From Candidatus Methylospira mobilis (GTDB lineage: Bacteria > Pseudomonadota > Gammaproteobacteria > Methylococcales > Methylococcaceae): a DNA stretch of 64,000 bases. Position numbers and translations under genes: made by a program. The stretch covers positions 1,111,716-1,175,715 of the forward strand of contig NZ_CP044205.1 in the NCBI RefSeq assembly GCF_009498235.1, given 5' to 3'. Under the pieces are notes generated by a model, which saw nothing but the letters and a program-made list of their open reading frames with translations, was not told the DNA's origin and did not search any database. Below, in pieces: positions 56,421-63,898 of this stretch (the first letter of the stretch is position 1; every line of letters begins with the position of its first letter).

Positions 56421-56954
56421 CTATTCGGTTATCCGTGCGGTTTGCATGTAGGAGAGTATGAAATCGCGAATCTGTCCGGCATTGTTGATATCAAGATGAG
56501 GAATGTTCGTATCAGGAATCGGCCCGTTGTCGCTGGCCAATGCGATGATGGATGGGTCGTTTCGAAACTCGAGCGGGTTATCCCGTTGCTTTCGGTGCAG
56601 TTCGATCTTGGGAATATTCGCGTCTTTGAAGCCTTCGACCAGAATAATATCAAGGCCCTGCTGGTCTATCTGCGCCAGTTCCTCGCATAAATCCGGTTCT
56701 TTTTGCATGTCGTGTTCGACGATTATTGCGCGCCGGTAGGGGGAGCACAGCAAGACTGTGGCTGCGCCCGCCTGACGGAGGCGATAACTGTCTTTGCCGG
56801 GACGGTCGATTTCGATGTCGTGATGGCTTTTTTTGATCAATCCAACGCGTAATCCGCTTGCCTTGAGCAGCGGAATCAGTTTTTCGAGCAAGGTGGTTTT
56901 GCCTGTTCCGCTACGGGCGGCAAAACCCAATACCGGGATCGGCGCGTTGATCAT
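56421..56954 (-). CDS. mobB: Molybdopterin-guanine dinucleotide biosynthesis adaptor MobB
   Basis: 177 residues from the ATG at 56954, which overlaps the upstream epimerase stop (ATGA). A GTG at 56975 would lengthen it by seven residues. The P-loop is FAARSGTGKTTLLEKLIPLL; IKKSHHDIEIDRPGKDSYRL and ILVEGFKDANIPKIELHR are typical MobB blocks. It binds GTP and assists MobA in forming the Mo cofactor. mobA is not next to it; instead it ends an operon of parA and an epimerase, an unusual place. Confidence 0.92.
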   Translation of the reverse strand: MINAPIPVLGFAARSGTGKTTLLEKLIPLLKASGLRVGLIKKSHHDIEIDRPGKDSYRLRQAGAATVLLCSPYRRAIIVEHDMQKEPDLCEELAQIDQQGLDIILVEGFKDANIPKIELHRKQRDNPLEFRNDPSIIALASDNGPIPDTNIPHLDINNAGQIRDFILSYMQTARITE

Positions 56955-57955
56955 CGATAGTAGTTTTTGTACCACTCGACAAAGCGCGCTACGCCGGTTT
57001 CTATGGATGTTTTGGGCTGGTAGCCGGTGTCTCTGCTTAGGTCGTCGATGTCTGCATAGGTGGCGGGTACGTCGCCGGGCTGCATCGGCAGGAAGTTTTT
57101 AAGGGCCGTTCTGCCAAGGTTGGTTTCAAGCAGCTCAATGAAATACATCAACTCGACGGGTTGATTGTTGCCGATATTGTAAATTCGGTAGGGCGCTTTA
57201 CTGCTGCCCGGGTCGGGACGATCGCTGTCCCAATCGCTATTGGGTTGCGCGGCATGATCGATGCTGAGTACGATGCCGTCAATGATATCGTCGATATAGG
57301 TGAAGTCGCGTTTGTGCCGTCCGAAGTTGAATACGTCGATCGGTTTGTTTTCTAGAATATTGCGTGTAAACAGGAACGGAGCCATGTCGGGTCTGCCCCA
57401 GGGGCCGTAAACGGTAAAGAATCGAAGGCCGGTTACAGGCAGGTTGAACAGATGACTATAGGTATGCGCCATCAGCTCGTTGGCTTTTTTGGTTGCGGCG
57501 TACAGGCTGACAGGATGATCCACGTTGTCGTGTACCGAAAAGGGCATGGCCGTATTGGCCCCATACACCGAACTGCTGGACGCAAATACCAGATGCTCGA
57601 TCCGATGGTGACGGCAGGCTTCGAGGATATTACAGAATCCGCTGACATTGGCGTCGATGTAGGCTTGCGGGTTGAGCAGCGAGTAACGCACGCCGGCCTG
57701 AGCCGCCAGATTGACGACGCGTTGCGGACGGTGTTCTTCGAATACCCGTTCAATCCGGGCGTTATCCTCAAGTGACGCTCGTACCTCGGTGAAACAGCGA
57801 TAGTTTTTAAGGTGGGAAAGCCGCGCTTCCTTGAGCGCCGCGTCATAGTAGGCATTGACATTGTCGATGCCTACTACTTCATCTCCTCGTTCCAATAAGC
57901 GCCGGGCAAGCGCCGCGCCGATGAACCCCGCCGTTCCGGTTACAACCAGCTTCAT
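56951..57955 (-). CDS. UDP-glucuronate 4-epimerase-like NAD-dependent epimerase
   Basis: 334 residues. The NAD loop is VTGTAGFIGAALARRL; IDNVNAYYDAALKEARL, AAQAGVRYSLLNPQAYIDAN, FASSSSVYGANTAMPFS and LYAATKKANELMAH (YxxxK) follow, then VYGPWGRPDMAPFLFTRNIL, the pattern of UDP-GlcA 4-epimerases (LspL/Cap1J type). It would make UDP-galacturonate for surface glycan. It overlaps the small membrane protein gene and mobB by four bases each, so the three are translationally linked. Confidence 0.9.
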   Translation of the reverse strand: MKLVVTGTAGFIGAALARRLLERGDEVVGIDNVNAYYDAALKEARLSHLKNYRCFTEVRASLEDNARIERVFEEHRPQRVVNLAAQAGVRYSLLNPQAYIDANVSGFCNILEACRHHRIEHLVFASSSSVYGANTAMPFSVHDNVDHPVSLYAATKKANELMAHTYSHLFNLPVTGLRFFTVYGPWGRPDMAPFLFTRNILENKPIDVFNFGRHKRDFTYIDDIIDGIVLSIDHAAQPNSDWDSDRPDPGSSKAPYRIYNIGNNQPVELMYFIELLETNLGRTALKNFLPMQPGDVPATYADIDDLSRDTGYQPKTSIETGVARFVEWYKNYYR

Positions 57956-58302
57956 GCAATCGATGTGGTTTCGCTTTCAGTTGCCGACGCTTGTGTATCC
58001 ACGTTGCTGTTTTCAAAAGACTTACGTGCAGCGACAGTGCCGTCTGCGATCGCTTTACCCAGGAAGTTGCGGCCCGGTATAAACGATGAAACCACCAGGG
58101 CGCCGAAGACTATGCCGTACGAAGCATAATAAACGGAGGTATACACGGCCTTACCGATCAGATTTTTTGCTTTTTCCTGGTCGGCGATGAGGCCGGCGTC
58201 CGCCGTCAATGCAGGTGAATTCCCTGCGGATTCATTGATAGAGGATTTTGGCGAGATGTTTACTGATTTTTTTTTGGTGGTAGTAGTGCTGGTCATACTC
58301 AA
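57952..58302 (-). CDS. Small membrane-associated protein coupled to ParA
   Basis: 116 residues, family not recognised. A polar N-terminal tail with a lysine cluster (TTTTKKKSVNISPKS, residues 6-20) is followed by a mildly polar region, one hydrophobic or amphipathic segment at about residues 52-76 (VYTSVYYASYGIVFGALVVS), a basic patch (PGRNFLGKAIADG) and a Ser/Thr/Glu-rich tail. It starts in the ParA stop and ends in the epimerase start (both ATGA). Size, basic disordered tail and coupling to ParA are what one expects of a ParA-activating adaptor, but this is inference. Confidence 0.75.
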   Translation of the reverse strand: MSMTSTTTTKKKSVNISPKSSINESAGNSPALTADAGLIADQEKAKNLIGKAVYTSVYYASYGIVFGALVVSSFIPGRNFLGKAIADGTVAARKSFENSNVDTQASATESETTSIA

Positions 58303-58922
58303 AACTCCATGATTTCATGAACAAGTGATTTGATTTCTTTAGCGGCTGCGCCTTTCGGTTCGAACTCGAGGACCGAAAGACCTTGTGCCGCGCTTTCGGC
58401 GAAGGCCACGCGTTGACCCACTATGCTTTGGGTTAATGCAAAAGGGTAGCCTGCCAATGCGCTGGATACATCGCGGCCTATAGCCGTATTCGCTATTTTG
58501 CGATTGACTATGAAGAGCGCTTTGATGTTTTCGCGGAAAACGAGCGCTTCTTGGATGAGCTTGACAATTTCGTCTGCGGCCCAGACATCGTAGGGAGACG
58601 GCTGTAACGGAATAAGCACGATATGGCTGGCCATAATTGCAGAGCGCGCTACATCGTTGGCGCGCGGCGGGCCGTCGATGATAACGTGATCGTAAGGGCC
58701 GGCAAGTTCCGGTATATCCTTGTGCAGGGTGGGTTTGGCCAAACCGACGACAGGAAAAAGAGCCTCCTGTACACGGCTGGAATGCCAATCGAGCGCGCTT
58801 CCCTGTGTATCTGCGTCCACCAGCAATACCTTGTTGCTGCCCAGCGCAAGCGCTGTCGCGATATTGACGGAAAGAGTAGTCTTGCCTACGCCGCCTTTTT
58901 GATTGAGTACGCTGATAATCAT
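58299..58922 (-). CDS. Orphan ParA-family ATPase
   Basis: 207 residues, ParA/MinD superfamily, short form without an N-terminal helix-turn-helix (type Ib or McdA/ParF-like). The deviant Walker A is NQKGGVGKTTLSVN (signature Lys9, Lys15), A' is LLVDADTQGSALDW, and Walker B is DHVIIDGPPRANDVARSA. No parB-like or parS-like element is adjacent. It leads a minus-strand operon parA - small membrane protein - epimerase - mobB. Such orphan ParAs position cargo other than DNA (protein clusters, microcompartments, secretion machines). The cargo here is unknown. Confidence 0.9.
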   Translation of the reverse strand: MIISVLNQKGGVGKTTLSVNIATALALGSNKVLLVDADTQGSALDWHSSRVQEALFPVVGLAKPTLHKDIPELAGPYDHVIIDGPPRANDVARSAIMASHIVLIPLQPSPYDVWAADEIVKLIQEALVFRENIKALFIVNRKIANTAIGRDVSSALAGYPFALTQSIVGQRVAFAESAAQGLSVLEFEPKGAAAKEIKSLVHEIMEF

Positions 58923-62094: not shown

Positions 62095-62814
62095 ATGCCG
62101 GATTTTCTCTCGCCCGAAGAGCTTTCCGCTCTATTGCTTTCCATCAAGGTTTCGATTTGGGCGACCTTGATGAGCGCCCCGCTCGCCATTTTTACCGGCT
62201 GGCTGCTGGCTCGTAAAAACTTTCCAGGGAAAGGCGTGTTCGATGCGCTGATCCATTTGCCTCTGGTGTTGCCTCCCGTCGTTCCCGGCTACCTGCTGCT
62301 GCTGCTGTTCGGGCGGAACGGTCCGTTGGGACGCGCGCTGGACGGCTGTTGCGGAATTACGCTGGGTTTCAGCTGGAAAGGCGCGGCGCTGGCTTCCGCA
62401 TTGATGGCTTTTCCATTGATGGTTCGATCGGTGCGCTTGTCGGTCAGTTTGATCGATATTCGCCTGGAAAGCGCGGCCAGAACGTTGGGTGCTTCGGCTT
62501 TGTCGGTTTTTTTCGCGATAACGCTGCCGATGGCGATGCCGGGCATCGTATCCGGTCTGGTGCTGGCCTTTTCACGCAGTTTGGGCGAGTTCGGCGCCAC
62601 CATTACCTTTGTCGGCAATATCGCCGGTGAAACCAGGACGCTGCCATTGGCTATTTATACGGCCAGCCAGATACCCGATGGGGACATGCAGGCGATGCGC
62701 CTCATTGCATTGTCGCTGATCGTAGCGCTGGCCGCTCTGGTGGGCAGTGAGCAACTATCGCGCAGAATGGAGCGAAAACTCGGTTTGGGGGCGGTCGACA
62801 ATGCTGGAGCTTGA
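62095..62814 (+). CDS. modB: Molybdate ABC transporter permease ModB
   Basis: 239 residues, about five membrane segments. VVPGYLLLLLFGRNGPLG and the EAA loop RLESAARTLGASALSVFFAITLP-type sequence are typical, as is FSRSLGEFGATITFVGNIAG. It forms the molybdate channel. No modA (binding protein) gene precedes it in the window. It overlaps modC by 14 bases. Confidence 0.94.
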   Translation: MPDFLSPEELSALLLSIKVSIWATLMSAPLAIFTGWLLARKNFPGKGVFDALIHLPLVLPPVVPGYLLLLLFGRNGPLGRALDGCCGITLGFSWKGAALASALMAFPLMVRSVRLSVSLIDIRLESAARTLGASALSVFFAITLPMAMPGIVSGLVLAFSRSLGEFGATITFVGNIAGETRTLPLAIYTASQIPDGDMQAMRLIALSLIVALAALVGSEQLSRRMERKLGLGAVDNAGA

Positions 62815-63898
62815 TATTGCTGTCAGGCGCAAGGGGTTCGACGCCCATTTCGCGGTGGAAATAAAAGAGCCGGTCAGCGGTGTTTTCGGCGCATCCGGTT
62901 CCGGCAAAACGACGCTGTTACATGCGCTATCCGGACTGATACGCCCGGATAGCGGGCGCATTGTTCTGAGCGGCAATGTGTTGTTCGATGCCGAGAGCGG
63001 GGTTTTCCTGCCGCCGGAGCAGCGGCGCATCGGACTGGTGTTCCAGGATGCCCAGCTTTTTCCGCATCTATCGGTGCGTGACAATCTTTTGTTCGGCTAT
63101 AGACGCTTGTCTCCGCAAGCCCGGCAATTCGAATTGAAGGAAATAGTCGGGTTGCTTCATCTTGGGCATCTATTGGAACGTCGCCCCATCGCTTTGTCGG
63201 GCGGCGAAAAACAGCGTGTGGCGCTTGGGCGCGCATTGTTGTCCAGTCCGCTGCTGCTACTGTTGGACGAACCTCTGGCTTCGTTGGATGATGGGCTGAA
63301 ACGCCAGATTCTTCCGTTTTTGCGGCGTGTGCGCGATGAAATTGCGCTGCCGATGCTTTGCGTCAGTCATGCGCTCGATGAGTTGCTGTATCTCAGCCCG
63401 GTGCTTACCCTGATAGAGGGTGGGCATGTTTTGGCGCACGGGCATTATCTTGATATTCTGGAACGCTTGCCGGGTTACGCGTCAGGCGAGTTCAGCGAAA
63501 TGAAGAATTTCTGGCCGGTAGAAATAGTTGCGCTGGAGCCGGACGACGGGGTGGTTCTGGCTAAACTGGCTGGTCAGCCTATCGTCATGCCGGTGCGGTC
63601 CGCTTGGAGTCCGGGCCAAATTGTCACCATAGCGGTAAAGGCATCCATGATTGCATTGGCGCGCGAGCGAGTAGTGTGCAGCATACAAAATCAGTTATTC
63701 GGCCGGATAACGCGTTTTATTCCGCATAAATCCGGCATGCTTATTCTGGTCGATATCGGCGACGGTATCGAGCTGGTATCGGAAGTGAGCGAGCGTTCTG
63801 TGGAGAGGCTGGCATTACAGCTGGGCGAAACCGTCTGGTGCCTGATAAAATCCCAAGTCTTCGAATATACCGATACCGTAGAGAATATAGAATCCTAG
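62801..63898 (+). CDS. modC: Molybdate ABC transporter ATPase ModC
   Basis: 365 residues from the ATG at 62801; an ORF extension to 62747 lies inside modB. Walker A is FGASGSGKTTLLHAL, signature SGGEKQRVALGRAL, Walker B LLLDEPLASLDD. The C-terminal Mop/TOBE domain runs from about residue 290. It energises ModB. With nifH and mobB in the same window, it supplies molybdenum for nitrogenase and the Mo cofactor (inference). Confidence 0.95.
   Translation: MLELDIAVRRKGFDAHFAVEIKEPVSGVFGASGSGKTTLLHALSGLIRPDSGRIVLSGNVLFDAESGVFLPPEQRRIGLVFQDAQLFPHLSVRDNLLFGYRRLSPQARQFELKEIVGLLHLGHLLERRPIALSGGEKQRVALGRALLSSPLLLLLDEPLASLDDGLKRQILPFLRRVRDEIALPMLCVSHALDELLYLSPVLTLIEGGHVLAHGHYLDILERLPGYASGEFSEMKNFWPVEIVALEPDDGVVLAKLAGQPIVMPVRSAWSPGQIVTIAVKASMIALARERVVCSIQNQLFGRITRFIPHKSGMLILVDIGDGIELVSEVSERSVERLALQLGETVWCLIKSQVFEYTDTVENIES

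Follow-up and report, generated by a model that had tools for sequence, protein, structure and literature searches.

The window analysed here is a stretch of 64,000 nucleotides from the genome of Candidatus Methylospira mobilis, which is a single contig of 4,703,534 bases, and the system in question is a pair of adjacent genes on its minus strand, parA and a gene for a small partner protein. Four open reading frames (ORFs) had been predicted at this locus, where the guanine plus cytosine (G+C) content is 0.52-0.58, and all four were confirmed, on the minus strand and in the order parA, small gene, epimerase gene and mobB. parA (58299..58922) encodes an ATPase of 207 amino acids, assigned to the ParF class as described below, and the small gene (57952..58296) encodes a protein of 114 amino acids when read from the ATG at 58296; the predicted length of 116 residues is obtained only with a TTG at 58302, which is a possible start. 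The ParA, epimerase and MobB assignments are supported by Pfam and NCBIfam; the small protein has no match in either database. Among the junctions, all of which had been described as four-base ATGA overlaps, two are exact (small gene/epimerase at 57955-57952, that is, 57952..57955 on the minus strand, and epimerase/mobB at 56954-56951), but the first is a two-base gap between the parA TGA (58301-58299) and the small-gene ATG (from 58296); the TTG start alone would turn this gap into a TTGA overlap. Among the relatives, 16 have a partner that starts 0 to 9 bases past the parA stop, a close coupling without ATGA. Promoter and terminator patterns at the locus were not above those in shuffled sequences.

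The window ParA scores 272.2 bits against the NCBIfam model NF041546 (ParA family partition ATPase, cut-off 180), and its best match in PDB is ParF of plasmid TP228 (4dzz, expect value (E) 9e-26), followed by 5u1g (E 1e-25), which we take to be the ParG-bound form of ParF. A search of 72,556 plasmid records gave 791 matches to the window ParA at E <= 1e-30, 147 of these at 60-80% identity, and its identity to plasmid ParFs reaches 65%. Because of this closeness, the ATPase belongs by sequence to the ParF class of plasmid partition and not, as had been proposed, to a short class defined by cargo positioning. The ATPase motifs are intact: K9 and K14 of the deviant Walker A motif and P108, S109, P110 and D112 of the P-S-P-x-D motif (P108-D112) are invariant over the ParFs compared. 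S109, P110 and D112 align with Ser108, Pro109 and Asp111 of TP228 ParF, which lie beside the ParG helix in the published structure (PMC7308502, PMC5393062). Both genes are under purifying selection, judging by the ratio of nonsynonymous to synonymous substitution rates (dN/dS): over 7 genome pairs, parA gives 0.04-0.11, and the small gene gives 0.20-0.38 over 5 pairs, 2 further pairs being saturated. In the 300 bases upstream of the window parA, no 7-mer repeat was found beyond shuffles, a test which degenerate sites would escape.

Within the family to which the window belongs, ParF was detected in 22 of the 38 genomes (window included), the other 21 sequences being 62-73% identical to that of the window, and the next ParA matches fall to 45-47% identity. 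The partner gene lies directly downstream of the ParF gene in 17 of the 22 genomes, the window among them, encodes 109-135 amino acids and spans, together with parA, 7 genera; two further parA loci, both of genus g12, end at contig ends, and their partner slot is not readable. Judged by this distribution, the pair of ParA and small protein is real and conserved.

In other lineages, the same slot holds a different gene. In family f8 of the same order, ParFs at 61-64% identity are present in 5 genomes, and in all five a ribbon-helix-helix (RHH) partner of 72-82 amino acids lies downstream. Two of the five partners are identical in sequence. Of the two that were scanned with the Pfam ParG model, one scored 23.4 (above the cut-off of 21.4) and the other 19.0; four partners, when aligned with the higher-scoring one, show 56-67% identity to it. 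A ParG-like gene also directly follows the ParF gene in all three plasmids read: in the Aeromonas bestiarum plasmid, it bears a ParG annotation and has a 4-base overlap with parA, and in the Desulfolutivibrio and Serratia plasmids it is an unnamed gene for 79-81 amino acids, ParG-like by eye and carrying the tail motif described below. In the window, no RHH partner is found downstream of parA, and the prediction of a short ParA without parB stands, as neither a ParB nor a ParG gene adjoins; a ParG-like profile built from four f8 partners has no match in the window's genome and weak matches (E 5e-6 to 0.008) in 3 of the 38 family genomes, two of which carry parA. The ParFs of the window's family are split from the rest in both ParF trees (support 98 in the first and 97 in the second), although the first tree places the contig-cut L105, from another family, among them beside genus g6. 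Left out of the ParF trees were L102 (partner identical to that of L101), the contig-cut L105 and L060, L108 (the same gene as L240), and L249 and L250. By gene order, then, the small gene is in the slot of the RHH ParG gene, which it replaces. The discovery of a ParB/parS-type partner in related strains had been named as grounds for rejecting the original prediction; a ParG-type gene is indeed seen beside the closest parA genes in f8, but it is what the small gene stands in for in the window's family and does not accompany the pair.

Across the 13 partners aligned, the small protein consists of an N-terminal tail with invariant K9, K10, I14 and K17, a variable linker, and a hydrophobic helix-PG-helix module with invariant Y52, S59, P74, G75, D85, G86 and A90. 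In the window, the tail motif (residues 9-18, KKSVNISPKS) lies at 58243..58272 and the module (approximately residues 47-94) at 58015..58158, both on the minus strand. The net charge of the first 25 residues is positive in the linked proteins, i.e. those encoded beside parA, and the predicted arrangement of a basic flexible N-terminus and one hydrophobic segment is conserved across them. The motif KK-x-V-x-I/F-x-x-KP was found in 17 of 17 linked proteins vs. none of the 39 unlinked proteins of the module family (Fisher value 1e-14, which overstates independence because the sequences are related). The same motif is common to all seven ParG-like partners tested, which belong to ParFs at ~60% identity or more; it was written post hoc from the linked tails and four of the ParG-like ones, the three plasmid tails being obtained later. 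Two more distant RHH partners (L106 and L107) are without it. When aligned with ParG tails, 11 of the 17 linked tails beat 95% of shuffles, compared to 2 of the 39 unlinked ones. The proposed basic-tailed ParA stimulator thus survives in a sharper form, as a protein whose tail resembles the ParG tails of ParF-class ATPases: the small protein seems to keep the docking tail of a plasmid adaptor, with the DNA-binding end swapped for a hydrophobic one.

The module itself is concentrated in the window's family, where 36 of 38 genomes encode it, linked or as unlinked paralogues, vs. 11 of 263 others of the order; in a class-wide sample (n = 369), it was detected in three genomes, two of the window's family and one of another. 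In keeping with the prediction of something undescribed, the module has no known family in Pfam, NCBIfam or PDB beyond chance: PDB yielded nothing for the small protein and two chance-level matches (E 0.9) for the module profile, a Pfam scan of 29 module cores touched seven families, none of them in more than two members (best E 0.0025), and Pfam phasin models matched neither the small protein nor any of the 29 cores. A single-sequence AlphaFold model of the small protein contains helices at 32-72 and 76-105 around the invariant PG. In the module-family tree, the unlinked members cluster (support 83) and the linked ones fall outside, which is what a single joining of tail and module would predict; the alignment partly included tail columns. 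The module-family set was compiled without ORFs from later loci of 90 amino acids or less (fragments in L194, L195 and L198) or of 400 or more (long frames in L202 and L204), and without proteins having identical last 70 residues.

A parallel series was observed in Alphaproteobacteria. A scan of genome contigs returned mostly distant ParAs; partners were read at its seven best loci, and another two were used as outgroups. A Rhodoblastus metagenome-assembled genome (MAG) encodes a ParF at 58% identity whose partner combines a ParG-like start with a hydrophobic end. Of the 149 genomes of its family that were searched, 38 match at E <= 1e-50, and 12 genomes, the Rhodoblastus MAG included, carry ParFs at 66-100% identity to the ParF of that MAG. 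At these 12 loci, the partner ends in an RHH domain in three cases, in a hydrophobic segment in six (peak hydropathy 0.7-2.1, so that membrane insertion is possible but not implied) and in a phasin in three. At the latter three loci (L246, L247 and L248), the partner gene follows the ParF gene, overlapping it by 4 bases, and its product joins a ParG-like start to a Phasin_2 domain (Pfam scores 29.9 and 31.3 bits against a cut-off of 24.9, the third, 23.8, being just below). These ParF-phasin pairs are candidates for a ParA-type segregation system of polyhydroxyalkanoate (PHA) granules. All 12 partners keep, by eye, the D/E-x-W-V/I element of ParG-like partners, and 11 of the 12 tails fit the loose pattern V/I-x-F/I-x(1-3)-P. 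In the second ParF tree, which holds one of the three RHH-type alphaproteobacterial ParFs, the hydrophobic-type clade has support 90 and the phasin-type clade 100, with a weak backbone between clades.

Beyond what the sequences carry directly (the ParF class, the intact ATPase motifs, the conserved pair, the replaced RHH gene, the shared tail motif and purifying selection), a mechanism can be outlined. ParF dimers bound to ATP would coat the nucleoid, and the small protein would sit on its cargo via the hydrophobic helix-PG-helix module; the basic N-terminal tail might then dock into the ParF dimer in the manner of the ParG tail and stimulate ATP hydrolysis and release, and a diffusion ratchet would space or segregate the cargo. 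In published work, the ParG tail forms a helix within the interface of the ParF dimer, and an arginine of the tail stimulates the ATPase (PMC5393062, PMC7308502); partner N-termini are described as a general handle for ParA/MinD, the remainder being devoted to cargo (PMC10241942, PMC12204374). Taken together with the invariant ParF motif, these data argue for a ParF-driven module with a membrane- or granule-seeking adaptor. We infer that the tail descends from ParG and, because the module is hydrophobic and not RHH, a membrane or granule surface is the suggested cargo. What the pair spaces out is probably a cellular structure and not DNA, and the reading that we favour, with reasonable if limited confidence, is that of a chromosomal, domesticated ParF-type positioning module for membrane- or granule-bound cargo.

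Several observations weigh against this reading. The likeness of the tail to ParG spans about ten residues and is weak per sequence: 6 of the 17 linked tails fail the 95%-of-shuffles mark and 2 of the 39 unlinked ones pass it, and a profile of linked tails ranks the close ParG tails (E 0.03-0.9) just above the unlinked paralogues (best E 1.1), among which it places the RHH partners L106 and L107. Divergence is greatest in the window's tail, which has KS for KP and E 0.48 in that profile. Where 6 of the 7 ParG-like tails have G, the linked proteins have S, T or A, at a position that we assume to correspond to Gly16 of TP228 ParG. This Gly16 is said to be required (PMC5393062). The D/E-x-W-V/I element of ParG-like partners is absent, by eye, from the methanotroph partners, whose ParG likeness therefore rests on a shorter tail. 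On the side of the module, the AlphaFold model is a weak fold model, with a predicted local distance difference test (pLDDT) value of 80-88 over residues 41-70 and a predicted template modelling score (pTM) of only 0.29, and the peak hydropathy of the linked members (1.5-2.1 over 19 residues) is borderline for a membrane helix, so that a membrane helix and a surface-seeking hairpin are both possible. The genes neighbouring the pair reveal no cargo, and in three genomes of genus g12 (L088, L089 and L091), parA is kept with no ORF of at least 50 amino acids in the partner slot.

Within 340 bases upstream of these three partnerless parA genes, a cluster of DnaA-box-like sites (TTATCCACA and variants) is conserved; it is missing at a fourth g12 parA (L095) and at three partnered parA genes (L066, L073 and L090), and could reflect an origin or control by DnaA. 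In a g12 genome (L075, 5400-7000), a ParA-like gene with a broken frame directly follows an unlinked module gene.

The original prediction read the four genes as one operon and named surface-glycan sites, intracytoplasmic membranes and storage granules as possible cargoes, preferring the first on account of the sugar epimerase in the operon. In a four-gene glycan system of this kind, ParF would place the sites of glycan export. The epimerase (56951..57955, minus strand) is a protein of 334 amino acids that depends on nicotinamide adenine dinucleotide (NAD); its closest PDB chain is 5u4q (E 8e-132), followed by the 6zl6 group, and it is plausibly, on our assumption, a uridine diphosphate (UDP)-glucuronate 4-epimerase. 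The mobB gene (56421..56954, minus strand) encodes 177 amino acids from its ATG. At the 29 other parA loci, 21 of the window's family and 8 of other families, no match to epimerase, mobB or galE was found at E <= 0.01 in the stretches compared (1.9-10 kilobases each). The operon is therefore local and carries little information on cargo. Judged by gene content, the four-gene operon is not conserved, and epimerase and mobB are neighbours of the module, not parts of it, which leaves a glycan-site function scarcely credible.

The remaining alternatives differ from the favoured positioning module in cargo or in function. If the module were a coat protein of glycogen granules, ParF could share these out at division; in 8 genomes from four genera (L064, L065, L077, L078, L079 and L082 among the loci), genes for unlinked paralogues and for glycogen phosphorylase lie side by side and converge, and the phosphorylase is present in all 38 genomes of the family. 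However, it is present whether or not the genome has the pair, no glycogen genes adjoin the linked version at the loci read, and the paralogue and phosphorylase genes, being convergent, form no operon, so that we regard glycogen as an improbable cargo. Elsewhere (L067, L070, L063 and L212), the unlinked members have genes for EcsC, an HMA_2-type cation P-type ATPase or an Na/Ca exchanger in their vicinity, which suggests a cation-handling locus; collectively, the neighbours of unlinked paralogues hint at storage or ion-handling structures, with no bearing on the linked protein. The small protein could instead be an integral membrane anchor that brings ParF to the intracytoplasmic or cytoplasmic membrane and distributes membrane stacks or a cluster of membrane proteins. 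Its single hydrophobic stretch of 19-24 residues, at the hydropathy given above, is compatible with this, and methanotrophs mostly have intracytoplasmic membranes (PMC6680624), but a module so rare in the rest of the order is no general membrane factor in these methanotrophs, and we consider an anchor of this kind somewhat unlikely. That the pair still moves DNA, with the small protein tethering ParF or the chromosome to the membrane or with another ParG-like protein acting in trans, would fit the plasmid-partition class of the ATPase and the DnaA-box-like sites of the three g12 genomes; the lack of a ParG-like match in the window's genome, the scarcity of weak matches in the family (3 of 38, two in parA-bearing genomes) and upstream repeats no stronger than in shuffles make it decidedly unlikely. 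A decaying plasmid remnant without function would explain the plasmid ancestry, the loss of RHH and the missing partner in g12, but both the dN/dS values and the conservation of the pair over 7 genera speak against decay, and we rate it as very improbable.

Among specific candidates, polyhydroxybutyrate (PHB) granules were tried as the window's cargo and rejected, as the class I PhaC model TIGR01838 has no match in the window's genome. The model is likewise unmatched in every one of the 6 genomes from genus g2 and in the g8 genome, all carrying the pair; it has matches in 15 of the 38 family genomes, none over the cut-off, and 8 of the 15 also carry the pair. PHB is thus an unlikely cargo in the window's genome. 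Glycogen phosphorylase was discarded as a discriminating marker, being universal in the family and so uninformative, and the intracytoplasmic membrane was discarded as the general role of the module on account of the distribution of the module in the order.

Among the closest known systems is the ParF-ParG partition system of TP228 (type Ib), with which the pair has in common the ATPase class, the gene order, the coupled downstream partner and a basic N-terminal tail whose motif is found in close ParG-like partners; unlike that system, the window has a hydrophobic helix-PG-helix module in place of the RHH domain, no ParG-like match in the genome and no upstream repeats that were found. A conserved pair of ATPase and small adaptor with a basic N-terminal tail, found here in 17 of 22 genomes, is also the layout of McdA-McdB of carboxysomes and of the wider ParA/MinD cargo systems, where the rest of the adaptor serves the cargo (PMC10241942, PMC12204374); this likeness is one of sequence layout only, and the window's ATPase is ParF-like, its tail ParG-like, and its module and cargo differ. 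PhaM, PhaF and PhaH, which tether PHB granules to the nucleoid, are comparable as small proteins, since the window's partner too may connect the nucleoid with the surface of a granule or membrane, but they are described in a review as binding DNA themselves and as unrelated to ParA (PMC13052382), and the window's genome lacks a PhaC-model match. MinD-MinE belongs to the same ATPase superfamily and is stimulated by an inserted helix of the partner (PMC5393062), whereas the window has no MinE or MinC partner and the hydrophobic part resides in the partner, not in the ATPase.

It is already known that ParA/MinD partners have a basic N-terminus in common and differ in the remainder; the traceable exchange of an adaptor's end and the module family are new. 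Such partner diversity hides the origin of new cargo systems, and the series of ParF partners displays one such origin: related ParFs have DNA-binding, hydrophobic or phasin ends behind apparently the same tail, and the birth of a cargo system can therefore be traced in sequence. With odds a little below even, the ParG docking tail may be a portable ParF handle that acquired new cargo ends at least twice, probably three times (the methanotroph hydrophobic hairpin, the alphaproteobacterial hydrophobic segment and the alphaproteobacterial phasin). The resulting pairs would be active ParA-type systems that segregate internal membranes or storage granules, and the ParF-phasin pair would serve PHA granules. 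By title and abstract, no paper was found that describes a ParA-phasin pair or a ParG tail joined to an end for cargo other than DNA, in a search with most subscription papers and bioRxiv preprints outside its coverage. In a 2025 review, known PHA-granule positioning proteins are unrelated to ParA, and the question whether a carboxysome-like mechanism spaces PHB granules is left open (PMC13052382); the ParF-phasin pairs make this a directly testable question.

Finally, genes that look by eye like those for molybdate transport occur close to the ParF module both in the window (62095-63898) and at one phasin-type locus (L260, 5022-7033), which is probably a coincidence.

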